Assembly: GCF_964204865.1 (NCBI RefSeq)
Contig: NC_135250.1
Span: 20,203,395-20,267,394 of the forward strand
Direction of reading: 5' to 3'
Origin: Styela clava
Taxonomy: Eukaryota; Chordata; Ascidiacea; Stolidobranchia; Styelidae
Length of the DNA stretch: 64,000 bases
The position numbers were made by a program, and so were the translations under genes. The notes below the pieces were generated by a model. It was given only the letters and a program-made list of their open reading frames with translations, had not been told where the DNA came from and did not search any database. This document shows positions 4,801-63,936 of this stretch, piece by piece. Positions within the stretch are counted from its first letter, which is position 1, and every line of letters begins with the position of its first letter.

Positions 4801-5037
4801 CGCACAGAGATTTGCCTCCAACTCTTAGTGAAATAATTTAAGCAAAACCGACATAGACCAAGGGTTACCTCAAATAAAACATTGATATTTTTGGTTGGGA
4901 TTACACAACAAGACTCTAAATTTTGTGCTCTATAATTAGGTGCCCGGAGACAACAGAATTACTGCGACAAGAAGACGATGCCTCAGAAGAATTTATTTTT
5001 GATTCACATATTGTTTACTGCTTTCGTATTGGTTTAA
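1838..5037 (+). CDS. Candidate 3' exons of an unrecognised tail-anchored protein (partial)
   Basis: Three plus-strand blocks look like linked exons: 1838-1948 (or 1838-1931), 4159-4201 and 4940-5037. Each follows an AG acceptor. The first reads KLEDYAVSCHKEKYHGKICR and continues to LMGACARLTG; the second reads DFEERLRHEIEEKQ and looks like charged helix or coiled coil. The third ends in the hydrophobic run NLFLIHILFTAFVLV followed by a stop, as in a C-terminal membrane anchor. Joining is in frame if the first exon uses the weak donor CCC|gtattt at 1948. The better donor CAG|gtatga at 1931 would need another exon. A transposon (2648-3714) sits in the first intron. Upstream exons would lie left of the window. 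I do not recognise the family; the blocks could also be chance open frames. Confidence 0.33.
1990..2405 (+). repeat. Dispersed non-coding repeat, copy B
   Basis: Second copy of the repeat at 606-1130, same orientation. It includes the motif ACTACTGGACCGATTGCCGG and a GATGACGTCATCAAAA block, which also appear, reverse-complemented, at 29070-29470. It lies in the putative first intron of the candidate gene at 1838-5037. Confidence 0.55.
2648..3714. mobile_element. hAT-type non-autonomous element, 1,067 bp, exact TSD
   Basis: Terminal inverted repeats CATGGTTCCCAACC (left) and CAGCGGTTCCCAACC (right, reverse complement) are flanked by an exact 8-bp duplication CTCTATAC at 2640-2647 and 3715-3722. 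The 8-bp target duplication and CAG-type ends fit the hAT superfamily. CCGGTCCGCGAG is repeated near both ends. No transposase is recognisable, so it depends on an element elsewhere. Confidence 0.85.
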
Positions 5038-5901
5038 TTTTTTTGTGTTGTCACGCGTTCGCGGCTCGCTTATTTTGGCTAAATGCAAAGAGCCGCGGAT
5101 GCTGTAGCGCGTAGTTCTGAATCCTTACAATTGTGTCTTGTGTCGAAATTTGAAAACGACTCCAGCCTTAGAGAATTTCAACTTCCGCATTCAGCTTCCA
5201 TCTCCCGAAGACCGAATTTGGAGGTGCTTATGCTTTTGCAGCGGTGCGAATTCACGGATAGGTTTGTGAAACCTTGCGAAGATTCCATATGTGCTGCAAA
5301 TCAAATATGAACCATAATATGATGGCGACAGTAAAGGACTTTATTTCCAAACACAGACCAACAAAAAAACACGTACGATTTTAACACCATAGCCTGACCG
5401 GAACAGAATTACACGACAAAAAAGGGTCCCGTTGTAACCTGAAAAAGCAAAAATATAGTCTGTCTGACGACCCATGGGAAAGTAGAGACAGAAGCCTCAA
5501 CCTCGCAAATTCTAGCACATTACAAAGTATATTTATATCACGAAAGCAATCAAGTATATATACAAACAACTTCAATTCCAACCACAAAATTCTTGTTTCC
5601 GCGAAACGAATGAAATTGAGGTGCAGACTGGGGCTTTTCACAGAATTTTTCTGTAAATATTCTCTGGCAATCTCTAACTATTAGTAAATCCCGTCGCTTC
5701 AGAAATGGCACGACAATGCTTGTTCCTAGCGGCAAAACTCAATAATTTATAGCAAGAGGGACAAAAATTGGGCAACAAGTACCGAACCAACCACCTATCT
5801 CTCAAACAGTCTTATATCCACATGACATCAACACTCAGCAACTCGAGCAACGAACGGGACAGTTACACTTCGAACAAACTAGTCTGTCACAACTATAGGA
5901 T
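5038..5901. other. No gene seen
   Basis: Short open frames occur on both strands, but I see no splice-linked exons or family motifs. The sequence has no clear terminal repeats of its own. Confidence 0.4.
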
Positions 5902-7256: not shown

Positions 7257-7759
7257 TGCTAGACTACAGTCACTCTTACCTAAGTAAGGCATTTAAGGAT
7301 TTTTGATACCAATTTTTCATGAAGTATGCAAACACCACAGCATTTGTTGGGGTGCATATGGCACATACTTGTCTTAGGCCAGTAAGGTATTGGACATGTA
7401 TCCCGTCTTAGTTATACCGTTTAGTTATAATTATGTAGATACTGTTACAAGTAAACACACATACATTTCAACCTGAATTCATGCTAAGAACATGCCGAAC
7501 TACTGTTAACGAGCAAAATTTTCCCCCGTTAGTTTGCGAGCACTCCGGCGCCTTAAAGAACTTTCGTTAATACCGATTCTCGGTAAAATGAGAGAAGAAA
7601 GCACTTTACGAGACGTCTATTTTGGCTCGCAAAAAATTCTCTCGAATATTAACGATACTTCGAAAATACCACTTTTGCCTTTCACGAGAAAGTGGGTGCT
7701 TAACTAACACGTTAAACGATAAAGAAGTTTGGCGAATGGCGCCCCTGAATTGATTAGAT

Positions 7760-22400: not shown

Positions 22401-25400
22401 AAGGGTTTAAATCTCCGAATTCAAACTCTAGTTCGAATAGCTAAAAAAAACTCGCAAATTTTCTGCCAATAAATACAAATAGTTGCCAATGGTTTAGTAT
22501 ACGCCAACAGTAAAAGTGTCCTGCGGACTGCATGGACTACTCTGATATATAACATACCTAAAATCTCTCATATTTGTTGTGCTGCATTCAGATACCGTAA
22601 CGTTTTCACATAAATTGTATAGCTCCGTTTCCATGAATGTATATTGTGGCGATATAAAGTGAGGAAGTGTGAAGAGTAACGTTCCTAGTCCTGCTAGGAA
22701 GATTCCCCATCCAATCCATCGTGGCTTATGAATATCTTCGCCGACAAATGTAATGATGAGCAGCGCACAAACGGCAGCCATATCAAAGCTACTGGCAATG
22801 ATACCACTTTCTATACTTTGCAACTCAAATCTGAAAAAAAAAATGTGCACTAAGAAGTGGAAATTGGATGGCGTAATGTGAGGACAAAGAAAAAGCCATG
22901 TTTAGGAACGATTGTATATGAAATATGTGGGAAAAAAGGGTGGAGAGGGAGAATTGGTGGAATTGGAGAGAAGACCAAGAATTAAGAGACCCGTAGGCCG
23001 CGGAACAAATACAGAGAAGAGAAAAAATTGTTAACTTGCCTCTTTTCCAGCGTGCTAATGCATACACCAAGTAATCCCGACATGATTGTTTGCTCTATCA
23101 TATGGGCCATGCTGAGAACAAGTAGTGCCCATTTTGCATTTGCGAAACGTTGACATTGGTCGGCTTCATACCTGGAATGCCGAAATATTGTAGTTGTAAA
23201 AAGCTATAGCCTACTCTAAGGGTTATATACTCATTACTGCAGTATATAAGAGTAGAAAATCCGTGCAACTCCAGTAACACTAATGCAGACTGTACACTGT
23301 ATCAGAGTTTAACATTGCTGCAAAGTGTAAAACTACTTTGGATTATCAGTTCACGACAACGTTGCGTTGATGAAATTTCATTTCAAATGTTATACTTTTG
23401 TATAAAGCCGCCGCCACTGATGCAAAAAATATGAGATTTGAGAGAAACACCCGCCAAGTTTTAGAATCAAAAAATCAGCAATTATTCAGTCATGGTTCGG
23501 GTTAGGAATAATTTGAAAATTTGAAATTTCAGCTCAATCTTCATTCCAAACCCTAATTGGATATTCATCTTATTTTCATTTTGAGAGGTGGCGGGGGTGG
23601 TTTTAGGATACTCCTGTAGTATGTGAACCAAGATGGCGGACACCGGAACGTAGTATGTGTACCAGGTTAGGGTTAGGCCATAATTTTAGGTAAAAATACT
23701 ACGGGTGTCATTTGGCTAGTCCCCGAACTCGTAATAGAACTGAAATAAGGAATATTAGAATGAAATTATTGCTTAACCCTAACATGGTACACGTATTACG
23801 TTCCGATGTACGCCATCTTGGTGCATATACTACGGGGGCGCCGTTTCTAGTGAGGGCTTCCTACAAAAAGTCCCGTTTTCTTACCGCTTAGAAAAGCAAC
23901 AACATGTAATTTGACACCCACATCCTTCTGCGTCACCATCATCACCATCTTCAATTTTCTTGTGATTGTTTGTACCCATTACTATACATAAACACTCTAA
24001 ATATAAGCTGAATATATCAAGTGCCTCCTCATCGTTAAACGACAGTATGAATTTGCAAAAATTCTAATCATTTGTATACAACCGATATAAAATATTTATG
24101 CATAATGCATTCTATCCAATAAGCAAGTATAACCACTGCCCGTCCAGTATTCATATAAATCAAATCGAGTGATTTACATATATATTATAAAATTATATCC
24201 CTTCATCGTGAGCAAAGTTTGAGAATTCAGACTTTTTTTTATTTAAGTTCAAACTATTTATAGTGTATGTATATACCGAAACGATTCGAGTGTGTAGTTT
24301 AGTGCAGGGGTCGGCAAACTTTTGTTGTTCGCGGGCCAAAATTAAAGGTTGCAAGTCATTCGCGGGCCGCACATATTTTTAGAAAGTTACAAACCGAGAG
24401 AATGGCCAATAAATCAGATTTTTTCACACAAATTTCAGTTAAATTTCAAGCAGCGCGCGAAGTCTGATAATTTAAATATTTTCTGCGCCCATAAACCATT
24501 TACACTCAGCATCAACTTTGTCACGTTCTGTTGCCATTTGTCTAATTATAAGCAATTTATAGGTTCATTAAACGAGTGATTGTGAATTATATACTTGTTA
24601 GATTATAATATAATTTAGTGACTCAAAACAAATTCTGTTACGTAAAGAATATAATCGTCAATAAAATTGTTTTGTAAATAAAATTCAGTGAAGCGTCGCG
24701 GGCCGGATTAGCGGGCTGGTTTAGTGCCACAATTCATTGCAAAGAATCTTTATGCTTTTTATTTTACTTTAAACACATTTATAAAAAAGTATGTTATAAT
24801 ACACTACCATAGCACTTTAACAGTAATCGCGACAAAGGAGCTGCCAAGCCTGTGTATGTATTTGTATTATCATATTTTTGGATCACCGCTCTAGGAGACC
24901 CTCATTTTCAGCCGTTCTGTCTATCTGTATGTTTGTCTGTCTGTCTGTGTGTTTAGCTGTAGCGTCTAAACGGCTGGACCGATCTGGATGAAATTTCTAA
25001 CGTGGGTTATGCTGTCACCCTATTTATGTGCGTTTCACTGAAAGTCCGAATTGATGTTCCGTTTTCATGGCAATAGCGAAAAAACGCGCCAACCGTTGTG
25101 AAATTCTAGTTTTCTGACAATTTGTGGCCATTATCTCTTTAACAACGTCGAAAATTAAAATTGCGAGATTGCTTCCCTGATAATCGGGTATGCTTTCGAC
25201 AGTTTACGTGTCACAAGTTACATTTTCCATTCCGATCATCGTGTAATCGCAATTATTTTTTGCAGGTAAATCAATCATGGTTTACTGGGTAAATAGCAAT
25301 ACTTGAAACGCGTTAAGACCCATAGAAGCTTTTGTAGGCATACAAGACATAACCCTACACGAAATGATTTCCTTATTTAGCAAAATTGACTTCGCGCGGT

Positions 25401-28457: not shown

Positions 28458-31400
28458 TTAACTTTCATAACATTTACTAGACAATTCTGGGTCTGTGTCA
28501 CGAACATCATCGATGATGGCTCGGCACGTGATTTCTCCAAATAAAAACATTCCACCGACAAACAGGAGCATGCCTACACCCATAAGAAAATAGGATTTGC
28601 GTGTCTTTGGGGATGTATCGTCGAGAATGATCCTCGTTAAAGCGAAACCTGTAGAAAAATGATATTCTGGATTTAGCAACTAAATTGTCAATTCGTATAA
28701 TACAGTAGTGTGCTTTCGTGTCAGTACCTAACCATCCCAAAACAGAGTTGTTGATCTGGGCTTCTACGTTTTTTAGAAGTGGAGCCAAAACTAGCTGTCC
28801 AGATTCGTATTTCTACTTGGAGGGAAATTAAAGAACTCCTCGGATATGAGAGTCGGAATTGAAGACCGAAGATAAAAAAAATTTGCGAAAGCCAAATTTT
28901 CAACATTCAAAATTCCGTGTCTCGGGAATTAAATCTGGAATCCAATTTTTATCAATCCGATTTTGGAATTATTGCTGAATCTGATTATTTGAATAAAGCA
29001 AAGTATGATAATGGCCGGGTGCAGAAACCATTAGCATAATCGACGAACCCAAGAAACTTTTCTTCAACCAGAACAGAATGCTTTATATCAGCTATTTTTT
29101 TCAACTATTTAATTTTATAGATCTTAACCAAGAAAGCATTTCTCAGATATACGGACACGAAAGCTAAAACGAAAAATTTTACTTCTAATGAAATGAAAAT
29201 GCAGTCGCGGAACAACAATGAACAATTTTGATGACGTCATCAAACAACATTTAGAAGTCAAAAACGAACCCCATGAAGCCTAAGAAAAATTTTGAAATCA
29301 ATAAAAGTAAAAGTGATAAACACAATCTTCAACCACCGAAATTATAAAGCCATTGGTCCAGTAGTTAAAGAGAACAGCGATTTTTTTCCACAAAAACAAT
29401 AACAACAGGAAAAGAATAAACGATAACAACAACCTAATAACAAAATGATCCAAATTTTTGTCTTGCCAAATCCCTCACCTGGAAACACCAATATGAAACA
29501 TCCAGCAATCCCGCCTACGACTGCTATCGCCACGCCTATATTAGGAACGAGAAGAGAGAATGCCAAAGAAGAGAAAAACCATGTCATCGTTATGACGTAA
29601 CGACGAATCTTTTCGCGCTTGGGTGGAGGTGTCAAAGTCGTCATTCCAGTCTTTGAAAGAAGAGTGATAAGCGCCGCTCTATTGTAACAAACAGAAGAAA
29701 TGTGGTGAGGCATTTGGTTCTTAATAGTATGAACAATTATAATAAATAAAAGTCTCACCGTCCGCAAAATTGCAAAATAGGATATGATGTAATCATTGCA
29801 ACTACAACTGATATTCTAGCAGCAATGACAAACCAATCTTTAGCATCATATGATTGTAAAATATCACTCTTCGCGGCATCGCCGAATGTCAGGTAGCCGA
29901 AAACTCCTGGTGAAAAATAATAAGTCCATGTAAATAACTTGTTTCTCGTAGATACGGATGAAAAAAAGAATAAATCCATTTCATATTGACAAATGAAATG
30001 GAAAGAATGCATTCTGAATTCAGAACAACTAAATACCGATTTCCATCTGTATAACGTTCTATCTATATTAAAAGTTTATTATTGAACAATAAAAATCTCA
30101 GCAGATTGCGGTTCGAGAAAACAAAACAAGTTCACAGTTTGGTGCGTGTGAGTAAATGAAGCAGGCAACGATGAACAATTGGTGTGTGATGTTGTTGTTT
30201 ACTACTGGTCGAAATAGGCTGGGCACTAATCGCCTACTTTGCTGAACGCCAATACCACAAGTGGCAAAATATTGTCTTGAGTTGGAAGTGGGTTTAATTA
30301 ATAAGTACGAACCTGTCACAGTGTATGTAGTGGCGCATAATACCATAGAACTTACAATAACAATCGACCAGTTTGACATTGTTTTACGTTTTAATGTTGC
30401 ATAGACTGGGACTGAGCTAACGTGACACTGAAAAAGAAAATGTATGTTAGCAAATCAAGTCTGACAAAATGAAAAATAAAATTATACGATGATTACAAAC
30501 TTCAGAATTCGGCTTGATCAAAATTAAATTAACAGCTTTTGAAGTGGCTTAATTTTTTTCGTTAAATACAGATATTCGTTTATAGATAAAAAATTATATT
30601 GTAATATAATGTGATATGTACTTCCCTGGCCAACAAAGTAATATGTGTAAGAGAATGGTGTATCAAATTGCCAAATGATCTTCTATTAACCAGGATTTCC
30701 AGAAATATATAACATGCTTTTAAAAAATTACTAAAAGATACATATATGATTTCAAAGATATATATATTTTTTATATAAATTTCGTTCACCTGATAAGCAA
30801 AGAAAATAGCAGGAATCGCACTGAAAGTCATTCCCCAGCTATCTTTACCACGAGGGTTATGTACTGGGTGATGGTCTTCGGTAAAATATTTGATGACAAC
30901 AGTAAACATAACAACCAAGGTTGCAATAACGCCGATAACACTGGAGGAAAATAAGGAGCATATCAAAAATCTGAATAAAGGGTAAATCAGCCGAGAGTGT
31001 TTCATCTATCGCTCATAATCGGATAAAATTCAACGGGCCTATACTGTGATATGGACTAGCAAGCTATTGCTAACTGTGGCTAAATACGAAGTGAATAATT
31101 AAATTAAACATCATTCACGTTCATGAGTTGCTTAAACTGGATAAACTCACGAAGAATTTGTCGAGAGCTTCACTATCGAGATGAGTGCGAAAATAAACTA
31201 GAACTCAATTTGGGTTGAATGAGAAAAAGGGTTTTGCGATCTTAGAAAAAGATAATACTATGATTGCACAGAAAGAACGCCGCCTTCCAAGACAGATAAC
31301 ATTTATCGCATGTAACAAAAGCAGCGCGTGTCCTGTTAATTCCGTGTTACCAAGACTATGTGGGACACTAGATACTAGAACAGAAAACAACACTTTCAGG

Positions 31401-34148
31401 AATATTTATTTGAATTTCATTTGATGATTGTCCCGTTTGAGAGCAGGGGATTTCACATTAACATCTCGAAGGTGTACAACTATATTTTATCATAAAGTAT
31501 ACCTTTCATCAAGGTCTAGTACGGCTAGCTCAAAAATGCACCTCCGAAATCCTTCCCACAAACCCTATTCTATGACATAGTGATATGTTCAATTCATTCA
31601 GAATATATTGGGATTGTGAACTGTCTTTCAATGAACTTTCATAAAACATAAACATTGATGCAAGTCTGGGCAAGGTTCTCAGGTTCCTGCATTTCATACT
31701 TCAACCCCAATTATAGTTTGAATTTAAAGTGGTGTTACCTGGCGTGTCTTAGGAAACCGATATCCTTTGGTATGCATAACGGTAGTATAATTAGAATTGC
31801 AAACGCTGACATTGTGAATTTTCTGTTCATGTACCAGTGATGACAAAAATCGATTCCCACTATGGCTTCCATAACTGTAAAAGAAGGTATTGTCGTATTA
31901 AAAAGTTCGGGTCGGGGTATGATCATAGACATGGCCACTAGCCAGTCAGTTAAACATACGATATGTGCGTGATTGATCACATTGGACGAAAAAGTATTTG
32001 GTGTGTTCATTTAACGGAGCACTTACACGGTAATTATACTTTTAATTGGCTTTACTTTTTTTTCTTTTGAATTTCGTATGATTTACGGCTTCATCTTATT
32101 ATGATTCCAGATAAATAGCCAGATGAAACACATGCTTCGCCGACAATGGAGACTACAAACGTAGACACTGACTTTGGATCGTTAACCCATTAATTAATTA
32201 ATTAACTACGACCCTCACGCATGCAATATGTTAACGAGGTACATTGAGCCCAATACAAAGTCATGCAAATCATTTTTGACTTGTCATAGTGCGGGTATGA
32301 AAACAATTGGTAGCATGCATTTCGTTATTCACCGACAATGTCCCTAAATGTTCGTCAAAAGAGATTTAATTTCACAACGCGATAGGATCTTAGTCAAACT
32401 TGTTTATTGGCGCATGTTCAAAGAGACACAAACTCTCGCTTAGAAAAACAAACTATCTAGTGGTCATTGATTTCTAAATTCGATAATCCCCATTGATCTT
32501 GTTTTAGACAAACAAAGTTAACCCAATTCAATTGCAGTCATTGTTAGCTTGTGAAGATTAACGTCAACAACATAGGACTTCCTCCCGACAAGGCGACAAT
32601 GCAGACGACATTTTATTGGTTTGGGTGCGTGTCAACAAGAAATGACTAAAAACAACCCGAGCCGGGGTAACAGCCACGAAGAACTTAGATACAATAGATA
32701 AAAAATATACTCCTAGTGTGAAAATTGAATTCCAAATGATTCCTAAAATGGTTTAATGATAGTGATGTAAGTTCGTGTGTGGCGCGAAGGAAGTGAAAAA
32801 AGTTGGAAAATGTGTACCATAGATCTATGAGATGGAAACTCTAGTCGTCAAATCATCATTATATATACCATCTCTGATTCACTGTGCAGTAGTACACACA
32901 TCAAAGCTGAAGTCGACGGTGTTACCCACATTATGAAAGAGCAAATATTTCAAGAATTAAGTTTAAAACTCGGTCATGTGATGCGACGACGACTTTTGCA
33001 ATTATGCAGTCTTTGTCCTATTTATGCAATCGTGCGATAAATGCAAATTTTATTACGTCGTTAACCGAAAGGCCGATCGGTCGCAATTTTATCAAAAACA
33101 CGTGACGCAGCGGTTGAAATGCGCGCGACATTACCAGATCTTAGCGGAAGATCCCGCAGAGAAAGGCTTCAAGTGACAGCTGGTGAGGGGAAAGTGATAA
33201 ATCCTGGCCGAACTATCCCACGTTATTTAAGTACAAGTTTTCATGTTCAATTACCGTGTATCATAACCTACATAGTTGATGAATAAAAAGCATTTGACAA
33301 GGTTTTACAAGGAAATTGAACTACCAAGCTCCAACATGACGCAATTAGCGATTGATTGCGTTTTACGTACCTTTGTCAAATTGATCTCCAATAATGATAA
33401 CCATAGCTATACAAGTGCCAAACATATACACTATTATACATATTTCGGTCGCGATACCGAATCCCTTTCCACAAGTTGCTTCGATTGCAGATTGATATGT
33501 GTTGCTTGAATGTACTTGAGAACAATATGCTAAAGCAAAAAGGCTGGTGACGATTAGAATCAGAAACATCTAAAAAAGAAAGTATTCATTTAATCTCTGC
33601 ACTGTAATAACTTAATTAATTATTCATATTCATGTCATGTACCGCAATTTCGTCATTAATAGTATGGTAACGCAACAGGTTGCATTGGCCTTAAGGTATT
33701 TATAATTCATAATTTATTTTATACAACTTTACTCAAAGCGAAGACCCGGATGAAATTTTAAGTCATTACGTAATTTCTTTTGACCTAACGTAGGCGTAAG
33801 TCATTATCCATGAGCGCGATTTGCACAAACAAAGCTGTTACGCAGTCATTGAAAAGTATGTTCATGTTTACCCTGCAATATCGCGCAAAATATTACTTCA
33901 CTTACCAGTTCCATCGCTACGCCGGGACCAATTCCACCAGCCTGTCCAAATGCGTTTGGAAAATTGAGAAGTCCTGCACCCATAGCGGCATTAACCACTA
34001 TAAAAACTGCTGCAGGTGTTGAAGTTTTTCCTTCGTCAACATCAGGCAGTTCAACCTTTTCATCCCCAGTTTCAGTACTGCGGTAGCCATTTTGTATCGG
34101 TTCATTTATAGCTAAAATAGGTCGTCTCTCTTCTCTGTCTCCCATCAT
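28458..34148 (-). CDS. SLC38A7: SLC38A7 (SNAT7)-like amino-acid transporter
   Basis: A member of the AAAP/SLC38 amino-acid carriers; SNAT7 in vertebrates exports glutamine from lysosomes. Coding exons in order: 33906-34148, 33371-33569, 31739-31874, 30790-30940, 30313-30427, 29759-29906, 29479-29678, 28458-28648. All phases match, giving 460 aa, about the vertebrate SNAT7 length. Marks include a cytosolic N-terminus with GDREERRPIL, TM1 FIVVNAAMGAGLLNFPNAFG, then ALAYCSQ, YMFGTCIAMVIIIGDQFDK, ILPLCIPKDIGF, IPAIFFAYQCHVSSVPVY, VFGYLTFGDAAKSDIL, ITSYPILQFCGRAAL and VVGGIAGCFILVFPGFAL. The start is the first of two adjacent ATGs; a second ATG follows directly. A dispersed repeat (29070-29470) lies in the last intron close to its donor. 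Assignment to SNAT7 rather than SNAT8 is from residue patterns only. Confidence 0.92.
29070..29470 (-). repeat. Dispersed non-coding repeat, copy C (reverse)
   Basis: Reverse-strand copy of the repeats at 606-1130 and 1990-2405, with the TTTGATGACGTCATCAAA palindrome and the ACTACTGGACCAATGGC block. It begins within about 10 bp of the donor of the last SLC38A7-like intron. Confidence 0.55.
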
Positions 34149-34207: not shown

Positions 34208-36404
34208 TGGAACATCAAGTCTGATCGCTATGGAACGCGGTTACCGAATGGACATAAGAAGTTACAATAGTTTTTAGAACAAGTCATGCAGTTTCAAAGT
34301 ACTTTTATCGTTCCTAGATGCAGCTGTTTCAAAGATATATAAATTGAACAAACCCTTGTTCGAATTAGAGCTATATTAAATACCACATTATGTACAGCGA
34401 TATTAACGTTAACGACTCATCTCTCCCGAATATCTTTGTCTGCCAAATGAATATAAGACAAGGTGCTTGCGCCTGAAGCTAATACCGCGCTCAAAATGAG
34501 AAAATAATAAGCCACGCGCAGCTGATATCAGGCGTGCGGCATACGTCTGCTTTCGATTTTATAAGCATTCTGACGCTCTAATTATCTCAAAATGCATTAC
34601 CTAGCACTTATCGGAAGCGGATTATCGCGAGATAGGTACGCAAAACGATTGTCAGCAAAATCTAATACTTTGCGAGATTGAATTGATATTCTAGATTCCA
34701 ACTAAAGTGTTGATTTTACAGTCACTTGTACAGGTCTCATTCGAAAGTACGTTTTTAAACTGATGAAGTAAAAATGGAACAAGTTCATTATCCAGATACA
34801 ATTAAAATACACAACCACACTAAAATTTGTTTCAGATTCAACAACATAGTTATGTTAACGAATTCTAACTTTAAAAATGCAGTACCACTAAATGTGAAGT
34901 TAACTCTCATTCGCTCTAGTTCAAATTTTAGGTTTGTCGGCACTTCGGGTTATGGTCAACACTTATTGATCAATCTTTTATAATTTTGCACTGCCAATGA
35001 AAATTGAATACGAATGCGCACAGATGCGAAAAGGCTTTCATTAGCTGAACCTGCTGACAAGAATTAGCTTGCTTGCGAGTCGCATATATCAACACATCTG
35101 CTATTGATGTCGAAATTTTTCTACTTTACATGACATCATCATAGAAACGTTTTCGATTTCGAACATAATAAACAAAGTACAAAAATTTTCTATTACAAAT
35201 GAATTCGATAAATAGTCTTGTTACACCCGTTCCCACGTCGATTCTTTTATCTAATAATAACGTTATTAGCGTCAGTTAGTAGAGCAGATATCGATTACAT
35301 ATCGCGTCATTCGAAGGTAAATTGGGTGCAGTAGGGCATCATTAGAGTCAAAAGTCAATCTCGTCGGAGAATCCTGAAATATTTACTGTCAACTTTCTCG
35401 CAGTATTTCGTACTGAATAATGTGTAACTCCACCCGACATTATGACCTCTGTGGTCAATCACGCAAGCTTTGATAAACACATAAGAAACTTCCCAAAGAT
35501 ATTGTTATGTCATTGAGAGTAAATAATTTCCAATGATTCGATTTTATTTTGTCGTAGACGGATTCAAATTTATTTGTATGACACAGCAATATAACATCAA
35601 AATGGCTCACTGCGGTTTACGCAGAAATATGCATATGACATACGAAATTTTCCAACTTGACTATATCCATCAAACCTGAAAACAAAACATTCGAAAAACG
35701 TATGTAATTCACAGTACCGACGATGTCTAATCCCAAAACAGGTTATTAGAATCATTGGAAAAAAAATCTGAGCTAACATACAGGTGCGCAGCATTACATA
35801 AATAACCAACGTAAAAAAAGTCAAAAAGTGACTTGCGCAATTTGTTTTTTAGCAAGACGATGAGCTACTTTCTCCTCGGAACGATTTATAATTGAGTCCT
35901 CGATTCTCTCAAGTAAGAGATATTCTCAATCAGTTCACTCTGTAAATGCGTTTTCTCGACCACGGTGGACATTTATGGCATCGTTATCTGCATTGATCTC
36001 GGAATTATAGTAACTTGCAGCTTACGTCTAACGGTGCCTTTTGTTACGATAATGGAAATTAGTGGAAGAGTGAGATTACGGGTTATTATCAATGTTATAG
36101 AATTTTTATTTTGGATTAACGAATACATTTCCAAATCGCTTTCCATCACATATGATTGATTAAATGAATAACTATTGAATACCAGTCAATATGACACATT
36201 TTTTACGATATGTGAACGAATGTTTTTGGTACGAATATTTGGCAACGTGGCACACTTCACCCAAAGAAGGGTTATCGATTGAAACGAAACCTCATCAGAT
36301 GGCATCCTCCACTTCCCACAAGGACATTGCCTGGCTAAACACTTACGATCTGAGGATTATTGAGCATTCCGGATCTGCAGGCTTTCAGATATCGTAAAGA
36401 AAAA
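34208..36404. other. Intergenic between divergent genes; no gene seen
   Basis: This 2.2-kb region separates the minus-strand SLC38A7-like leader from the TATA box of the plus-strand secreted-protein gene. It would hold both promoters. I see no exon chain or transposon in it. Confidence 0.45.
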
Positions 36405-36412
36405 TATAAATA
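36405..36412 (+). promoter_or_regulatory. TATA box of secreted-protein gene 1
   Basis: TATAAATA lies 93 bp upstream of the ATG at 36498. It would place transcription start near 36435, leaving a short leader. Gene 2 has the same arrangement. Confidence 0.65.
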
Positions 36413-36497
36413 GCAAGGATTGAGCCGGCAAATGACCCATTCCATTCTAGAACTCGACGAGTGCATCTGAACACTGAGCCTCCCTACCGAAGCAAAA

Positions 36498-38255
36498 ATG
36501 AAACTGTGGATCTTTCTTGCCCTCATTGGGTTGTCTGCCGCTGCTCGTGAGTTTAGTTATTTCGTTTTATTATTCAAAAACACTTTCCAAGTCCCAATAA
36601 ACTCATTTATTTTATATATATATATTCTAGCATCCCGCAAGTTTATTGTCAAAAAAGTATACGATGAGGTTGCTGGATGCTGGGTTGCAGATAAAATTGT
36701 GACCGACCCTGATGAGATTGCCGCAATTATGGCAGAACGCGGAGACAGTATCACTCGTGTCGACGGGAAAACACTTGCAGAAACTAAAGTAAGCATGTTG
36801 CTAATATTTGATCCAGTTAAAATGTTAGGCACGTAGCCATCGCTACTTGAAGAGGTGAAATAAAGTAGTTACTAAGCTCAATCACAGATACTAAACAAAA
36901 ACTAAAATTCAAAACTAGCATCCAAATTATTAGTCAAATTGAGAAAATAATATGGTTTTTCAGTCCCTTGCCAATTCACTGACAATCATCGATGTTCCCT
37001 AACTCCTGTTTGATCTATATTTTCTATAGGTTGGAGATGTCGTCAACGGAGAACCTATTCCTTGCAATATTGCAGAATTGAAAGGACCAGCAATAAGTCT
37101 ACCAAAAGCTAAGATCAATGCACCAAGCCAAACAAAGAAGGTCATTAGAAAACCATGCTTCAGAGGATACGGTCCGCATTTTGATTTTTTTCGGCTTAAT
37201 CACTATTTTGTGTAATGATATATTTTTTTCAACTACTTAATATTTACTTACTTACAGCTCCCGTCACCTTGAAAGTAGATGGCGTAAGCTGGAGATGTAC
37301 TCATGTCGGAAGAAGCCAGAGGTAGGTACCCGATTTCTATCTTCAATTACTGTTATAATTACCTTTCCAATGAACATAATCGCATCCCAACTAAAATTAT
37401 TTCTGCATCTTACACTGTAATATTATATGCCCGATTCCTGAACTAAAACCAATCTCTTTGTTCGGTCGGTTCGGTTAATGACTATCTAAACTGCCAAACT
37501 TGGAAATGACATGTCCAGACTAGAACTCAAACTCCAAGCAAAAAAGCCCACTCGGACATAGACCTCTGGTTTTATAAATCTATACGCTCTTGTCTGTGTC
37601 TGAAGCAAAAAATTGTGTATATTTAGAGTAGCACCATGCTTGCCTAATGGTCGTGTTCTCAACCGTGCCTGTGAAAAGAGTATCACCCCATGTGCAGCTC
37701 CCGAAATTGTGATTGTTGACGAACCCTGTATCGCAAAAGTAACCAAAAAAGTTGTTGCACCATGTGAAACAAAAGTCGTTGTACCATGTGAAACAAAAGT
37801 TGTTGTACCATGTGAAACCAAAGTTGTTGTACCGTGTGAAACCAAAGTCATCGAGAGAAAAATCGTGGCTCCTTGCCTAGACTTTAAACTTCCAGAGGTA
37901 AGTTGGAGACCAAAAGGGTAAATATTTCTATATTCATTGTCACATAACAAATATCGTCTTTTAATATGGGTAATTTATTCTGTATTCATGAGTTTCATGA
38001 TCTTTATTTACAATTCAGGTCAAAGTATCAGCAAGTGCTGGCGCGGGAGCGACTGCCTCTGTGGGTGACCACAGCGTCTCTGCTTCGGCCAACGTGAAAT
38101 TGCCCGAAGTTGATTTGAGCAAAATGGCAACTGGATGTGGTGGCAAATTCTCAGCCAGCTTCAAGTCGTCCGCTTCGGCTTCAGCTTCTGCACAATCATC
38201 AAGTTCTTTCTCCTCATCATCATCGAGCTCTGTCTCCACCTCCACCAAGGTTTAA
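36498..38255 (+). CDS. Secreted Cys-repeat, Ser/Ala-rich protein 1 (unrecognised family)
   Basis: Function unknown. Exons: 36498-36546, 36631-36788, 37030-37171, 37258-37321, 37627-37897, 38019-38255; consistent phases give 306 aa. Order of parts: signal peptide (MKLWIFLALIGLSAAA); an acidic region with GCWVADK and ERGDSITRVDG; a basic stretch; a small module VTLKVDGVSWRC; VAPCLPNGRVLNRACEK; four PCETKVV-type heptads (residues about 183-211, with related PCIAKVT before them); then a Ser/Ala-rich C-terminus with KLPEVDLSK and SSASASASAQSSSSF. The donor of exon 3 (gtccgc) is weak. The stop is GTT-TAA, or directly after AAG if a weak donor there joins 38608. A second gene 5 kb downstream shares the modules in another order. 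Composition suggests an extracellular structural or adhesive protein; this is inference. Confidence 0.8.
37747..37860 (+). repeat. In-frame 21-bp tandem repeats (PCETKVV)
   Basis: The unit is about GTTGTACCATGTGAAACAAAA. It is repeated four to five times with third-position changes only, so the peptide is near-identical in each unit. The repeat is within exon 5 of the gene at 36498-38255. Confidence 0.85.
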
Positions 38256-38607
38256 ACATTTTCATAAATATTTTAAAACTTCAAACCGCAGTTAAAGTTC
38301 ATATGCACAAATTTTCAAGAACTAACTAGAATTCATATATTAAGCATGTTGCCAGTTTCTAGTAGAACATACTATCTAAAGAATACAGAAGTTTTTTTTG
38401 TTCATTTTGTGTTATTATTTATTGTGCTATCGACAGCTCATCGTTCAAAATCATACTGAAATAGTTAAATAAATAATAGGGTATTCTAACACCACATGAG
38501 GGCATATTAACAATATGCTACATAAACATAAGCTACTTTGATTGTTATTAATTATCTTTAGAGAATATGTACATTAATTTTAATGTTTCAATTACAACTT
38601 TTTGCAG

Positions 38608-39212
38608 TAAATCTGCGATGGAGAAGAATTAAAGTAGAGTAGAGTTATGGTATGTATATAATTAGTATTTGAAATTTATCAAATTAAAGAAATCAAATTC
38701 TGACATCAGAAATCAGGTTTATATAAGTTTGAATTGACAAATATATCATGAATTCTCACTTCATGTTTATCATAACATCAATTCATGCTTTAAATATTTT
38801 TTTTTTTCGAATTAATATTTTAAAAATTTCCTTCTTTTGTTTCAGGGTGCACCATGGATATCGAAAAACTGTAGGAAGAAAAATTAAAAAAACCTGCACT
38901 TTCGTTTTTAATATTGTCATTATTTGCGCGAATTTCTTTTTCACAATTTTATTCTTTGATTGTGTATTGTTTGTCCTGTTTTGTTTGCCAGAGTGCGCAA
39001 TCAGTATTGTAACGTTATAGCGATTTAAAACATTTTTCAATAATACGTGTTTAAACCGGGAACAGCGTTTAACTAGCAATGGCCCTGGATTAATCATGTA
39101 TGCTATGAAGTGTTGTTTCTGATACGTTTTCGTTATGAAATCGAAAAATCTTTTTCTATTACTTTTGTCTATTGTGTTGTTTTCTAAAGTGTTTCGTTCA
39201 ATTTTCAATAAA
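38608..39212 (+). other. Possible 3' UTR exons and poly(A) signal of secreted-protein gene 1
   Basis: A candidate exon follows tttttgcag at 38608 and ends before gtatgt near 38650. Another follows tttgtttcag near 38846. AATAAA lies at 39207-39212. These would form a spliced 3' UTR, as also suggested for gene 2. Transcript data are lacking. Confidence 0.35.
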
Positions 39213-40901
39213 CTCGTGTCTTGCATTTGGCTTGTTAATCTTTGTCGGACAAAATAGTCTTGAAGACAAGTTTTTTCAAGTAATAAATTCAAAAAGCGAA
39301 CCAAACAAAAAACAGACCAAATTTAACGCCTTGTCGCAGTTCAGATGAAATCCTGGTAGAACAAAAAGTTTTGCTTTGTGATAGGAGGTCGTTACAAAAA
39401 CTCCGGGTACTATTAAACTCAACAAAAATCCGGATTTTTATTAACGTTAATTGTTTCACTAAAATCCCGTATGCGTCAGATAAAATATGGTAAACGTACT
39501 ATATATGTTACATCCTACAATATTCTTTTCAGTAGCACCGGGCTCTTATATGCAAGTTATTTTTCCCATCCAGTAGCATGGAAAATTACAGTTTAACTTT
39601 ATTGTACAGATTATATTAGATAGTCCGTAACCTGGTTAGAGTGAAGATATCCCCCAATAAAACAGGCTTACAAGGAGCAAAGATGATGAACTGAGTAAAA
39701 TGAATGGGGAGCTTGGGTGGTAAATTACTATTTAATATTTGAAATATCCGAATGGTAAGCATACGAACATTTATAGTATCTTTAACTTTGAGTGATAAAC
39801 CATTCATATATTCTTACGTTGTTTACATGCATTTTATTTTTCACGAAGACTGAAATGCTTCCAGTTAGATAACTTTAGCTATCAAAGCCAAACTAATTTC
39901 AGATGTTGAGACCTGATCGTCGTGAATAGCAGGATCTACAAGTAGTCAAATTTTTAGCAAGGATTTGTAAAAATAAAACACATTTATTTAAAAAATGATC
40001 CAATAATTTGATATTGCGTTACAAATGGATATTAGTCAAACGGCACCACAAATACTTTCTCACACAACTTATTTTGTACCTACATAAAAACTGCGAATTA
40101 CCCCAACGACACGTGTGCTCATTACGTTTAAACGCAGATCTATGTTATAATAAATCATATTTCTTACCATGGCTAAAGACTGCACACATAGCTTTCTACG
40201 AACAATAATACTGAATATATATATATCAGGTATAACCTAATCCCGAGCATTATTTTAGTAACCGAGAATTTATATATTAAACGTCACTGCCGAGGCTATT
40301 CAATTTTGTCATTTCTAACATGGTGATCAACTCTACTATGAACTTTTATTCTCAAGTTCACTTCTTACATGGGTTTCAATTCCACGAAGAACTTCTATAT
40401 GGTTTTCAATAAATATAGCGCGGAGAATTGAAATATTGATTCGATTTACGTTTTGCATAATTGATGCAACATTGACTTTTGTTGAAATAAAAAGCAGTGT
40501 AAATGTATTCATCGGCAACAGCATTGATTTTTATGTGATATACATCATTTTCAAATAGTATCACAGTAACCAGCTACAGATGTGCACAGATATGTTATGT
40601 TGATGCTAGAACTCGAGACTTCAAACCTGTAAATAAAAACATCAGTCTATCAAATCACTAAATACCAGGACAGGATGGTGGCGATTATGGTGGACAAAGT
40701 TGAGAATTCTCACTTGGAATTTCTCAAATTGTTTTCAATATTCCTCCACTAACGGCAGACCTTTGATGAATTAATGCCCCCCCCCCCCAAAAAAAAAACA
40801 AAAAAAAAAACGTTGAATACAAACCAAAATTAGCCATTTACCTTCATTAAAATTTGTAAAATTACTCTAAATACAAACAATTTTTTTTGCAATTTATATT
40901 A

Positions 40902-41058
40902 TTTAATTCAAGAGTCTTGCTGCACACTTACACAAATATATTTCTGTAACGTTTCGTCTGACTTCTTCAGACAGAAGACTTCGTCAGTCTGACCTTGGTC
41001 AAACGAAACGTTACAAAAATATATTTGTGTAAGTGTGCAGCAAGACTCTTGAATTAAA
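40902..41058. repeat. Near-perfect 60-bp-arm hairpin
   Basis: The arms 40902-40961 and 40999-41058 both read TTTAATTCAAGAGTCTTGCT, then GCACACTTACACAAATATAT and TGTAACGTTTCGT, with about two mismatches. The 37-bp loop holds a second CTTCTTCAGACAGAAG mini-hairpin. No coding potential. Confidence 0.85.
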
Positions 41059-42354
41059 CAGAATAGTTATTTTCACTCTTGCTATAGCATCCTTGCGTTA
41101 TACGCATACGTATACACCTGCGCAAAGGCATTGAGAACGGAAAGGTAGTTAGTTTCACGTAACCCCAACGGTTAGCTACATTATAATAATAGCAAAGGAA
41201 GAAACCGATCGAACTTGGGCAGCCTTTCGTTTTTCGGAAAATTCAAAATTCTAGAATTCGACGTTCCAAGCCTGTTGGGCGCCTTTTCTGGCCTTATATG
41301 GAAAAAAAATTATATACAGCAATCAAATCAATCATGCGTATTTAAGTTAAATGTCCTTGGTGAACCCATGAAAACACGACGAACAAGATTAGAACTGTCA
41401 AAATATAAAATATTTTGAGCGAAAATGCTATTTGCTTCGGGGAGGGAGCCTGGGGCAAACAAAAACAGCAGGTGGGATAAGTTTGTAGTGTTTACCGTGC
41501 GTGGGAAAATATTTATTTAGTTGGCTGTCCTCATAATTTTAGACTTATCATCCTATTTTGAAAGCGTGCCAAGTGGCAAGTGTAACTTTAGGCATCCTCC
41601 AAACCAGGATACAATTGATTTTTCAGGCTAAATGCCACTTGGGCAATGTCCTGGTAAGGATAGGCTTCAAATTTGAAAATGAATAATATGTCATTTCAAA
41701 TAATAAAGTACTTCAGTGTTTCAGATTACAATTTTTGTAACCTCAAATTATTGAAGTATTAGATTAGTTTCGCGTGACCTTCGTAGGGCAGTGGATTATT
41801 CTAGTTGATGGGGTTCGTAACAATCCTCTTCTAGGCTTATAAGTACTCATTCACCATGCCAAATGTGCAAAAATGACACTTAAATCTGTTGGATTGTGAA
41901 AGTAAGTGTTTCTGTAATCCAGAAAAGTGGTTACTTTGGCAGCTGGTTCAGCTATGCAAACTTTGGAAAATGGTGAGCTGATGCAAATATTCGTAACCCA
42001 GATATTTCTGGCTTCGAATATTGACTAGTAAATGAATATAAAGAGAATACTTGTAGCCACGTCATTGGGGTGTGTGGCGTTTAGAAATAAAGTATCTGAC
42101 GCTCATACTTGTTGTTTTTGGATAATATTGCATTTGTCTTAAACTACTGGTGTTAGTGATTTGAAATTTTCAATCGCATGAGGCCTATTATCCTCATATT
42201 TTAAAATTTGCTCAACTGATTAAGTTCCAAATTCAGCAGTTTTGAAAATAATTACCTTACCACACTAGTTTTTCATTAATCTATTTCTGCGATTAGTGCT
42301 CAAGGAACGTTGACAACAACGCTACATCAGTGTTCAAATGCTCCGATCTCTGGT

Positions 42355-42560
42355 TTGAAGTTCATTGAACACGAAGTGTTTGCCGGAATGTCGTTGTTGG
42401 TGTTTTGGGGGTCATTTTGAACTCGTGAAACTAATGGGCCATCGATTTCAAATTTTTAATGCCTACAGGTGGTTGAAACTTTTGGATTAATCTTTATTGC
42501 TTCAGGATTTTTCTGATCTCTATTGAACCTAATATTTCACCCACAATCAAAAAGATTGCT
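42355..42560 (+). repeat. Dispersed repeat, degraded copy D
   Basis: It begins TTCATTGAACACGAAGTG, like the start of copy A at 606, and has a diverged ACTAATGGGCCATCG block in place of ACTACTGGACCGATTG. The rest is weakly similar. Confidence 0.35.
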
Positions 42561-43045
42561 GTTTCATTCTACACCATGGGAACACTTTTGCTTTAAAAAA
42601 TATGGGAACGTTTTATTGTTGAACACTTTTTATTCACGCTTGCTCGCCGACTTCACAGCAAACTCTGTGATCATCTACAGATAAAGCTATAACGGTATAT
42701 TTTTAACATTACAGTATCAAATTACCGAGCTTTTTAAAGGGTACATGAACTCAATTTACTATACCAAGTACACGTGCCAGGCAATTCTTTTTATTTATTC
42801 TTCGAAATTCCATGCATCAAATTTTTTTTAAACAAAAGATATTGAGTATTCATTTAAACATCATATAAATCAGCGGTCCATAACTGATTGTTGTGAACTG
42901 ATTCAGCTATACTACAGTTGGTAAACGCTCTATGATGAACTGAAAAGATGAGTGTACAAACTGTTCATCGTTCAACATACGTACTTGCCAAAACACTTCA
43001 ATGGAGCGAAAAAGGCAGTGTCGTTCGCATCCGCCTTCTAGTTAA

Positions 43046-43052
43046 TATAAAA
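43046..43052 (+). promoter_or_regulatory. TATA box of secreted-protein gene 2
   Basis: TATAAAA 86 bp upstream of the ATG at 43132, the same spacing class as gene 1. A start near 43076 would give a leader of about 55 bp. Confidence 0.65.
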
Positions 43053-43131
43053 CCCAATGATTGGATCTGACAAGCCACTATCGTCAGCATTCGTGGATTT
43101 CATCTGTATCTTCGACCAAGGATCCGACATC

Positions 43132-44457
43132 ATGCGCGCTTTCATCGTTATTGCCCTACTGATAGGGGCAGTTTCAGCCTTTGACTTTCAGCTGCCCGGT
43201 ACGTTTCATATTAGCTAACTATATTAAACTGAAATTAATAGGAAAATTTTTGTTGAAGACCAATAACCTTGTGTATATATATATAAGCTAAACAGAATAA
43301 ACGTATAAAACAAACCTATTAAACGTTTTGACCATAACATATATATTTATTATTACAGATGTAAACGTGAAAGCGAAGGCCTCCGTTTCATCGTCAGCAT
43401 CCGCTTCAGCGAGTGCCTCAACAGGTTTAGGCACAAGTGCTAGCGTCAAAGTCGCAACACCAGAATTAAAATTTGAAAAGTCAATTTCACTTCAACCATG
43501 CGCAGATGTAGTTGCAGCACCAGGAGTCAAGAAAAGTTTCTCCAGCAGTTTCTCTGCCAAATCCAGTGCATCCGCTAGCGCCAGCGCATCATCCAAATCT
43601 AGCTCATCATTCAACTTCAGATCAAACCGACGACCATGCGTAAGACGCCAATTCAAACCAAGACCCTGCGTCACCAGGAGCAGCGTACAAATCAGAAGTC
43701 CATGTGTAACACGCGTCTCTGGCCCATGCACCTACAGTCGCCCATGCATACGTGCTGGATGTGTCCGTGCTCCATGCGCCCGTAGAAGACGCACATTCTT
43801 CCGCACTGCAAGAAAACCCGGATCCGGGCCAAGACAAGCACCAACATGCTTCAGACCAACTGCTGATCTTTTGCAAGGTATGTCATTTTACACCATACCA
43901 AACATCTTGAATATTTAATCAAGTTATTGAACGCAACTGCGCTTCGTTATCAGTAGAATCGAAAGAATACGGCGTACATTATTTTATTTTTAATCCACAA
44001 TCTCGTAGAAGGATTGGTAAAGTATCCTACATAGTATTAATATGCTTTGAATCTACAGGTAAGGACTTATGCGTCCAAATGCTTACGGTACGAGGAATGA
44101 AATGGAAGTGTGAACCAATCGAACAAAAGATCCCAAACGAAGTTTCAGTGTAAGTCAGACTGGAATGTTATATAATGATTTCATTGAAGTCTTCAAGTGA
44201 TTCTTAAATATTGTCATGCGTTCCCCTTCATGTGCGTTTTGCACAATAACAACGAGGCATAAATAATCCTCCAATAGTATCCGGAATTTTTTCTGAATGG
44301 GTCACTGAAAATCGCAACCAAAAAATAGCTAATGTTGTCGAAAGCAGGATTCTGTAAGAAGCGCTAATAAAATAAAAATTTTAGCTTGCCAGATCCCTGT
44401 CCTGAGCTCCCAGCGGCCCGCATCATCGAACGTGCATGCGATAAAGTAGTCGAGTAA
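43132..44457 (+). CDS. Secreted Cys-repeat, Ser/Ala-rich protein 2 (unrecognised family)
   Basis: Function unknown. Exons: 43132-43198, 43359-43877, 44059-44149, 44385-44457; all phases agree, 249 aa. Order of parts: signal peptide (MRAFIVIALLIGAVSA); FDFQLP; a Ser/Ala-rich module (residues about 23-100) with SSASASASAS, TPELKFEK and KSSASASASASSKSSSSF; an Arg- and Cys-rich run of PC units (RPCVRR, RPCVTR, SPCVTR, GPCTYS, RPCIRA, APCARR); a basic linker; a small module VQMLTVRGMKWKC; and LPDPCPELPAARIIERACDK before the stop. The last two modules match VTLKVDGVSWRC and VAPCLPNGRVLNRACEK of gene 1, and the Ser/Ala module matches its C-terminus. The 3' UTR is probably spliced (donor after 44496, acceptor before 44566). 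An extracellular, possibly structural or adhesive role is inference. Confidence 0.82.
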
Positions 44458-47176
44458 AGAACTTGCCACAACGAAGGCAAATTTCATAGAGTAGAGGTGA
44501 GTTTTACTTGTTATTCGGTGTCTTTGATATTTATTTTAATCTAACGAGTATATTTTCATTCACAGATCTTGGTGCCAACTATCTGTGGTGACTAGACAAA
44601 AAAATATAAAAATATTTGCAAGACACGTGTTTACCTTTTTCTGCTTCTCCATTTTAATATACCTCCAAAACATATATGTTTTTTGTTAAATGTTTCTTTC
44701 TATGTTAACACTTTCTCTACACCTTTCGCGCATTTGTGACAATATTTTATTTTTATTGAAATACAAAAATGAAGTGCAATCCATTTAATTGTCTCATCTT
44801 TTTATTATTATTGCTGCAATTTCGATAGCGGATGAAGCTCAAGTGATACTAGCTAATTGCAAATTTCGCAGTCATATGAAAATTTTGGCAACCAGTATTC
44901 GCGAATATTTAGCGTGTAACAGCAGCTTCCGTTGCGGCGTTGCCGCTTACTCGGCACTGGGCAAGACTTGTGCTCTGCTCAGGCATTGTCAGGTAGCGGT
45001 GTCTCCAAAATGTCGAGTCCCAATTTTGAGAAAATATTAGCTGATATCGGGTGGGCTTTCTACAAATGATCCCAATATTGATATTTCAGTATTTGGATGT
45101 CGGTTCTTGGCTAGTCAGACCGCACCCACCACCTATCCTACCATAACATAATGCAATATAATTACGAGAGACCAATTCTCAAATTTATGAATACGGAAGT
45201 CAAGTTACTACTTCAAGTTAAGCCTAACATAGAGGAAATAGCCCAGTTTCAATGCCGTTGTGTCAGATTCTATCGTTTCATAAACAAATATCCATTACCC
45301 TCTTTGCGCTTGCTATAGTAAAATACGCCGCGTTTTAGTGAAGAAATACAAACTTTAATAATTCATCAGACGTTAGGAAACATCGGGCGTTATTCGACTT
45401 GTCAACAATAGGAGGCAAAATCGCTTATGTTGTCATTGTCACTGTATTTCTTTTTCGTTGTCGTGCTCATGTTTTCCAATATGCATTTTCCTGAATTGGT
45501 GTGCTTAAATTCCAATGTCCAAGAAATGCTGTTTGCGGATTCAAACACCCTAAGATAAGATGTTTGTGGATAAACTAATAATAATTGTGAACCCAAAGTT
45601 TTTTGTCAGAGTGATATATATTATTTAAGTAAAGTTCTATGGAATATTACAGAAAGCCAAAAAAATTTTTCTTTTTCTTTTATATCAGTCCACACTTATA
45701 TTCAGAAACCAGCAGTTCAAAGATAGAGAAAACTTGTATTGTACTTTATAACTCCTAGACATCTATGGTGCCATATTGAAAATAATAGGCAGTATCGAAA
45801 CCTTCACCTACTAATGGCTATTATAAAATAAAAATTAAAAACGTACTCACAGACAGCTTATAAAAATATACTACTCTACAAACTAAAATAGAAAAAAATA
45901 ATGAAACTTTGTATAAAAAGGTAAAGTAAACTTTTAGAATATAACATGTCAAGCGGATATATTAAAAAGCAATTGATGAAAAAATATTTATCTACCTAAC
46001 CCCAGCTTAAGTGAGGCCCAAGAGAACGTACCGTCAATGTGAGTGCCATTTGTAATAGATGCTCGGCCTATCAAATTTTGGTTGCTAAGGTACGAATGTC
46101 AACACTGTTAAAGTAACTCCTATCAGGTATTCCATTACAAATATTATTAAGAGGGTGATACATGAAAATGCATACTTCTCGAAATGAGTTTTGAGTAAGT
46201 ATTATCTGGGCAAGAGGTCGCAGTTGGACCCATTATTAACCCATATTATAAGTTTTACAGTTAATGTTATTTCATACTCTCGAATGCTGAGTTGAATATT
46301 TGGACATAAAACATATGAACATACAACAGCAATAATTTCACATAGGAGAAACGAAGCCTTTTTTATTTGCAAGTTTAAAAAAAAGGGCCTTGCTGATAAT
46401 AGCTAATTACTGGGGCAGGGGTGTGCAACCTGCATCCCGCGGGCCAAATGCGGCCCACAGGGAAAATTTTGCAACCAATGGAGAAGTGACAATTACGAAT
46501 GGTATGCCGTGCGCGAAACGAGTTTTTAATTTAGTGTGTGCGAGTCATCCTAATCCCTTTGTGTCGCAAAGCCTATACCTGCGCTTGTGCAAAACGAACA
46601 TCGCATGTCATAAGATCAATAGCCAAAATTTTTGTGGCTGCAACTACTAGAAACTCTATGTTAAATAATGGCGCGGCCCGCGGTTTCAATCAGTTATTTG
46701 TATCTGACCGTCCTGTATTAAAGGTTGCACACCCCTGATCTAAGGTAACAAATAGTGAACAAAAATCCGCCTAATTCAAATTGATATCTAATTTTCTGCG
46801 TGCTCATATATTCAAATTCAATAAAATAAGTAACTACATCACATTGTGCAAGAGACACCACTGCTCATATGTAAAAATGAATTCTTTCTGACATCACTCC
46901 CGTCATGGTAGTTCATAGCTGTGTATATTAATCAATCAACTAAAATATTTTACAAAGGTTTTTGAGAATGAAGGGGATACAGCTTTGTCTCTAGATTGAT
47001 GCTCTTCCGATACAAAGGTATTATGTGCGGAATTGATCATTTTTGTGATCAGAATAATAAAAGTCTAACAACATCCGATATGCGGCAATGATTCAATTCA
47101 TTGAATTGATGTTCTTTTCTGACAGTATTTATCTTTTGCTGAACAAAATCCATAAAGACTTGGAAGTTTTGTATTT
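44458..47176. other. 3' UTR of gene 2, then intergenic DNA
   Basis: Apart from the spliced 3' UTR at its start and the MITE at 46416-46737, I see no gene. It ends at the stop codon of the convergent LRRC9-like gene. Confidence 0.45.
46416..46737. mobile_element. hAT-like MITE with perfect 16-bp inverted ends
   Basis: CAGGGGTGTGCAACCT and its exact reverse complement bound 322 bp. CCCGCGGGCCAAATGCGGCC lies near the left end, and GCGGCCCGCGGTT near the right. The flanks do not form a clear 8-bp duplication. It is related to the element at 52724-53348. Confidence 0.75.

Positions 47177-63936
<16,760 letters not shown>

Follow-up and report, generated by a model that had tools for sequence, protein, structure and literature searches.

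How do two neighbouring genes come to encode the same protein segments in different orders? This question is raised by two genes, designated here gene 1 and gene 2, within a 64,000-nucleotide stretch of the Styela clava genome (contig NC_135250.1, positions 20,203,395 to 20,267,394 of the forward strand), referred to as the window, in whose own coordinates positions are given below. An earlier note on this DNA had described the two genes and attributed the difference in order to exon shuffling; its observation was partly confirmed, and its interpretation partly supported, by the analysis presented here. The reading that we favour, to which we give slightly less than an even chance, is that genes 1 and 2 are diverged members of one tunicate cluster of secreted Cys/Pro-rich structural proteins built on a two-ended plan. 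The cluster extends for approximately 97 kb and comprises seven or more genes, all on the same strand, and common descent of all seven, as judged from their sequences, is likely but not proven. The apparent permutation would then reflect differential retention rather than exon shuffling: the order would look permuted because Ser/Ala blocks can occupy both ends of the protein.

Both genes are spliced and lie on the plus strand, and both exon chains were open, without internal stops, between the ends originally proposed for them. Gene 1 consists of six exons encoding 306 amino acids, from an ATG at 36498 to a stop codon ending at 38255, with intron phases 1,0,1,2,0. A signal-peptide-like first exon (36498..36546) ends in phase 1 and is followed by an exon that encodes the N region (36631..36788, end phase 0). 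Exon 3 (37030..37171, end phase 1) carries a PC..AEL motif, with KPCFR close to its end before a weak donor, and exon 4 (37258..37321, end phase 2) is a small central exon of 64 nucleotides that contains WRC. Exon 5 (37627..37897, end phase 0) encodes PC...RACEK, then a series of KVVVPCET octads and APCLDFKLPE, and exon 6 (38019..38255) encodes a C-terminal Ser/Ala block and the stop codon. The octads, previously described as Pro-Cys (PC) heptads, are encoded by a tandem repeat with a 24-nucleotide period (37747..37848, plus strand, 4.2 copies). Gene 2 consists of four exons encoding 249 amino acids, from an ATG at 43132 to a stop codon ending at 44457, with intron phases 1,1,2. Its first exon (43132..43198, end phase 1) is signal-peptide-like and includes FDFQLP; the second (43359..43877, end phase 1) encodes an N-terminal Ser/Ala block followed by Arg-rich PC repeats; the third (44059..44149, end phase 2) is a small central exon of 91 nucleotides with WKC; and the fourth (44385..44457) encodes PC...RACDK and the stop codon. 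Judged by eye, both proteins begin with a hydrophobic, signal-peptide-like sequence, and both gene models are consistent with the proposal that the products are secreted, Cys-rich, silk-like proteins with Ser/Ala blocks.

The earlier note had matched three kinds of module between the two genes, and two of the three correspondences were solid. The WxC...PC...RACxK block gave a score of 61 and the Ser/Ala block a score of 119, and neither score was reached by any of 1000 mono- or 1000 dipeptide shuffles. The PC stretches gave a score of 56, which was reached by none of 1000 mono- but by 13 of 1000 dipeptide shuffles, and homology of the PC stretches is therefore unproven by this comparison. The latter result, along with several weak or out-of-order exon matches to the upstream genes described below, would be expected if homology were limited to the WxC/RAC block, with the Ser/Ala and PC segments being convergent low-complexity sequence regenerated by slippage. 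The Ser/Ala blocks, however, outscored all of their dipeptide shuffles and share anchors that are not part of any repeat (DFxLP[ED]V and PE(L/V)), and we consider this explanation quite improbable. The permuted order itself was upheld: when gene 1 was compared with the six possible orders of the three blocks of gene 2, the best fit was to WxC+RAC, RPC, SA (196.5), and the native order of gene 2 fitted worst (119.5).

The modules had also been described as bounded by introns, which was true only in part, as similar blocks straddle introns and several block ends fall inside exons. The WxC/RAC block covers three exons in both genes, with internal phase 1 and phase 2 introns at matching places when indels are allowed for, and these common internal introns point to common descent of the two genes. 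The Ser/Ala block begins 5' of its intron in each case, at DFKLPE/V in gene 1 (phase 0) and at DFQLP/DV in gene 2 (phase 1), while the Ser/Ala and PC stretches of gene 2 occupy a single exon with symmetric phases (1-1). That symmetric exon, and the phase-1 intron located 5' of the WxC exon in both genes, are what exon shuffling through introns would predict. The block ends inside exons argue against such intron-bounded shuffling: the WxC/RAC block is interrupted by two introns, and its end in gene 1 falls within an exon; because the gene 1 exon with the Ser/Ala block starts in phase 0, a swap with the phase-1 exon of gene 2 would shift the frame. Exon shuffling as the origin of the two orders was accordingly set aside as highly improbable.

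Neighbouring genes outside the window provided the evidence for an older plan. A tblastn search with the PC stretches against 100 kb on each side of the window identified five loci upstream, all on the plus strand and each with a best E value of 0.001-0.002, whereas the downstream 100 kb gave only matches with E >= 0.37. The five loci, designated A1 to A5, start at window-relative positions -52.7k, -45.2k, -35.7k, -26.9k and -6.5k, that is, 43-89 kb upstream of gene 1. They form an array of tandem copies that are approximately 89-98% identical. With a 9.5-kb query around A3, copies A2, A4 and A5 were 93-98% identical in their longest pieces, and A1 was 89-90% identical in the gene part, falling to 79% in its surroundings. 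A model of A3 was made by hand and the other copies were mapped from it; complete open chains were obtained in four of the five copies (A2, A3, A4 and A5), the end of the fourth exon being unmapped in A1. A3 has five coding exons with intron phases 1,1,2,1 and encodes 417 amino acids, including 41 Cys and 35 PC motifs spaced mostly 8 or 9 residues apart. In the model, exon 1 encodes a signal peptide and exon 2 SVSASAVAKTSFGPCAEL, a short Ser/Ala stretch, followed by Arg-type PC repeats; exon 3 is a micro-exon of 16 nucleotides, exon 4 encodes Lys/Glu-type PC repeats, and exon 5 a Ser/Ala tail that contains TGCxGG.

Substitutions were counted in the three of five array copies that are of equal length (A3, A4 and A5). 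Synonymous divergence (dS) was 0.059 in both the A3-A4 and the A4-A5 pair, with nonsynonymous divergence (dN) of 0.013 and 0.010, respectively; there were 17 synonymous differences in each pair, against 12 and 9 nonsynonymous differences. These counts bear the signature of purifying selection in the two pairs. In a search of the whole genome (376.6 Mb, 379 contigs) with a 128-residue PC stretch from the array, at least 28 matches were obtained at E up to 10 among 49 candidates scored, and the 10 matches with E < 1e-14 all lay within the five array copies. The next match, C5:7003751-7004035, lies in an open frame of 277 amino acids (E 0.025) and may be a remote relative located outside the cluster. 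Matches with E values of 3-10 on contigs C15, C43, C168, C190, C241, C270 and C365, in open frames of 177-1135 amino acids, perhaps represent another repetitive gene family or chance. A corresponding search with 103 residues of gene 1 returned three matches at E up to 10, all within gene 1 itself, although short diverged exons may escape such a search.

Several features connect the array with genes 1 and 2. A small central exon preceded by a phase-1 and followed by a phase-2 intron is common to gene 1, gene 2 and the array. The array carries both types of PC repeat, the Arg type as in gene 2 and the Lys/Glu type as in gene 1, and the anchors PC(x)AEL...PCFR, KI(V/E)APCL and TGCxGG were seen by eye to recur across the array and genes 1 and 2. 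Exon pairs were scored against 300 dipeptide shuffles. Among the pairs expected to correspond, three gave a fair fit: array exon 2 paired with exon 2 of gene 2 (score reached by 3 of 300 shuffles) and with exon 3 of gene 1 (13 of 300), and array exon 4 paired with exon 5 of gene 1 (27 of 300). An ancestral gene consistent with these features would have had a left half made up of a signal peptide, a Ser/Ala stretch and Arg-type PC repeats, a centre formed by a small exon between phase-1 and phase-2 introns, and a right half in which Lys/Glu-type PC repeats led into a Ser/Ala tail. The central exon would correspond to the WxC exon in genes 1 and 2 and to the 16-nucleotide micro-exon in the array. 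Gene 1 would have retained the right-hand Ser/Ala block and have a different N region, and gene 2 would have retained the left-hand block and end after RACDK.

A number of results weigh against the two-ended plan. Two expected exon pairs failed, namely array exon 5 paired with exon 6 of gene 1 (score reached by 85 of 300 shuffles) and array exon 4 paired with exon 4 of gene 2 (234 of 300). Three pairs that are out of order equalled or outdid the expected ones: array exon 2 paired with exon 5 (11 of 300) or exon 6 (8 of 300) of gene 1, and array exon 5 paired with exon 3 of gene 1 (2 of 300, at a low score of 25). When exon orders were compared, the native order was best for gene 1 against the array by just 1.5, and for gene 2 against the array it ranked fifth of six (151.0), below orders with the Ser/Ala tail placed first (168.0 and 166.0). 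No WxC block was noticed in the array during the tblastn survey of the region, and the A3-A5 pair differs from the other two array pairs in having 9 nonsynonymous and 2 synonymous differences. Finally, the closest pair of Ser/Ala blocks is the C-terminal block of gene 1 and the N-terminal block of gene 2, a closeness that a two-ended ancestor does not predict on its own.

That last match, the strongest between any exons of genes 1 and 2 (score 105, reached by 0 of 300 shuffles), leads to the main rival explanation, in which one neighbour received a copied or relocated Ser/Ala block from the other through partial duplication, ectopic recombination or gene conversion; the permutation would then be real and local. 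The two blocks lie about 5 kb apart, and such a transfer would also account for the order comparisons, in which the native order of gene 2 was the poorest fit to gene 1, and gene 2 matched the array better when the Ser/Ala tail of the array was moved to the front. The DNA between and around the genes offers less to this explanation: apart from the octad repeat, the direct repeats listed for 36000-45200 were two-copy repeats of 20-34 nucleotides, none of which paired the two blocks, and because a signal-peptide exon stands before the block of gene 2, a plain duplication of the gene 1 3' end would be insufficient. We consider block transfer possible but somewhat unlikely, and retain differential loss from a two-ended plan as the preferred reading.

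Exon G+C content was 0.47 in gene 1 and 0.50 in gene 2, compared with 0.23-0.36 in introns. Donor sites were scored with a matrix, and seven of the eight donors of the two genes fell in the top 5% of GT sites in the window. The third donor of gene 1 (37172, ACG/GTCCGC) was weak, at the 89th percentile of GT sites, and the phase-1 match of the gene 1 central exon depends on it. An alternative 3' end of gene 1 through splicing at 38250 was rejected, since the donor there is weak (62nd percentile). A second WxC-like block in the N region of gene 1 was likewise rejected, as it amounted to a gapless stretch around IP and LP; the local score of this region against gene 2 (37) was reached by 11 and 16 of 1000 shuffles. 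The N region, together with most of exon 3, had been called acidic, and proved to be only mildly so (isoelectric point 5.4, charge approximately -1.6 at pH 8). The mature products carry net charges at pH 8.1 of +9.7 (gene 1, 14 Cys) and +21.5 (gene 2, 13 Cys). A single-sequence structure prediction restricted to exon 5 of gene 1 was uninformative (mean predicted local distance difference test score 35.9). TATA-like boxes, also claimed previously, were present upstream of both ATG codons on the plus strand, TATAAAT at 36405..36411 in gene 1 (93 nucleotides upstream) and TATAAA at 43046..43051 in gene 2 (86 nucleotides upstream). As TATAAA occurs in 12.8% of 120-nucleotide stretches of the window, the pair is suggestive rather than strong evidence. 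The strongest of the donors examined (GAG/GTGAGT, 44497..44502, plus strand) lies 40 nucleotides 3' of the gene 2 stop codon and indicates a possible intron in the 3' untranslated region.

The earlier note had recognised no described family, and within the collections searched this held for genes 1 and 2, which were below cut-off in Pfam and NCBIfam and had no match in the PDB. This coverage, which lies outside other eukaryote genomes, does not establish the lineage specificity that the note had proposed. Gene 1 gave 3 and 39 pattern matches in viral and prokaryote collections, respectively, none of which was confirmed; Rfam matches and tRNAs were both absent, and no description of this family was noticed among the papers listed in literature searches with peptide strings of both proteins and by topic. 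An account of ascidian bioadhesion (PMC4275875) contributed nothing to the present interpretation. The array copy that was scanned, A3, passed the Pfam gathering cut-off of Cornifin (SPRR, PF02389; 34.8 bits) with 52.4 bits, and its PC exon alone scored 61.1. None of four dipeptide shuffles of that exon was listed for Cornifin, which indicates that regular spacing matters beyond composition. The Cornifin match of gene 1 (21) was below the cut-off, and for gene 2 no Cornifin match was listed in Pfam at E up to 1.

The likeness to SPRR proteins lies in regularly spaced PC motifs (in A3 usually at intervals of 8-9 residues) within repeated Pro/Cys units, and perhaps in a role in an outer protective layer, SPRRs being components of vertebrate cornified envelopes. 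SPRRs are cytosolic and lack a signal peptide, whereas genes 1 and 2 and the array have signal-peptide-like N-termini by eye. The coding region of an SPRR is one exon, whereas the models of gene 1, gene 2 and A3 have six, four and five coding exons, respectively; further differences from SPRRs are the Ser/Ala ends and the WxC exon that genes 1 and 2 possess. SPRRs are cross-linked by transglutaminase through Gln and Lys; by composition, Gln numbers 3 in mature gene 1, 8 in mature gene 2 and 15 in A3. On these traits, we file the family as SPRR-like by repeat and not as an SPRR, and the Cornifin resemblance is likely to be convergence. Alternating Ser/Ala stretches, secretion and repetitive sequence also recall silk and sericin-like proteins, but the Ser/Ala blocks here are short and stand beside Cys-Pro repeats and a WxC exon, and this likeness carries no claim of homology. 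A further parallel is provided by the oikosins of the Oikopleura house, which are secreted proteins of a tunicate outer matrix; approximately half of 80 are reported to lack known domains, and their families to have grown by duplication (PMC3390340). The comparison is one of descriptions only, and oikosin paralogs are there described as dispersed through the genome, unlike the single cluster found here.

The surroundings of the genes were also surveyed. Between genes 1 and 2, at 40895-41065, lies a 68-nucleotide inverted repeat (93% complementary, 35-nucleotide spacer) that resembles a miniature inverted-repeat transposable element. Neighbours in the window, all on the minus strand, include single exons of a family 10 glycosyltransferase (GT10) fucosyltransferase (11974-12585) and an organic anion transporting polypeptide (OATP) transporter (19901-22901), both over cut-off, a single exon of an Aa_trans-like transporter (29345-34148) that was below cut-off, and a leucine-rich-repeat gene (52164-57249) with one exon over cut-off and one below. 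Translated strings such as NPNLVH.LRS..RHLG..TTGAP recur by eye at approximately 20730-20897, 21261-21488, 23694-23888 and 60749-60935, which suggests an interspersed repeat. Elsewhere in the genome, on contig C9 near 16.18 Mb, a tunicate-type cellulose synthase was found, with glycosyltransferase family 2 (GT2) and glycoside hydrolase family 6 (GH6) exons in one 9-kb stretch. Its cellulose-synthase-like exon (4733-5557 of that stretch) scored 60.9 bits for Glyco_trans_2_3 and 28.3 bits for Cellulose_synt, both over cut-off, and the GH6 exon (7390-7674), downstream on the same strand, scored 42.4 bits. Glyco_hydro_6 scored 35.4 bits in this genome (cut-off 27) and was found in none of 14 control genomes. 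According to PMC10334666, a GT2 and a GH6 domain are combined in the CesA of tunicates, and GH6 occurs in no other known animals. The genome is therefore, on this evidence, very probably that of a tunicate.

Secreted, repetitive chains with regularly spaced Cys, encoded by a duplicating cluster, suggest a matrix-type function, and we infer from the sequences that the products contribute to a cross-linked extracellular material such as tunic, cuticle or adhesive. The chains would be exported from secretory or epidermal cells, the regularly spaced Cys of the PC motifs would form disulphide cross-links between them, and the flexible Ser/Ala ends would lend silk-like extensibility to an outer matrix (tunic or cuticle) or to an adhesive. 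The guess of a tunic gains ground because the genome is that of a tunicate. A broader proposal, which we offer as speculative and unlikely as it stands, is that tunicates, independently of the vertebrates, evolved a secreted, SPRR-like, disulphide-cross-linked outer layer of Pro-Cys repeat proteins with silk-like ends, encoded by a dedicated cluster that is growing by tandem duplication and whose neighbouring genes exchange Ser/Ala blocks, which would leave related products with common modules in differing orders. If the favoured reading is right, the sister group of the vertebrates would possess a cluster of genes encoding an extracellular material of a Cys-Pro, silk-like kind; its location is known, and this, together with the recent copies and the TATA-like promoters, would make the proposal testable. 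The case would also carry a caution, in that modules seemingly shuffled between two genes may be both ends of an older plan, and only neighbouring paralogues beyond the window can reveal such a plan.

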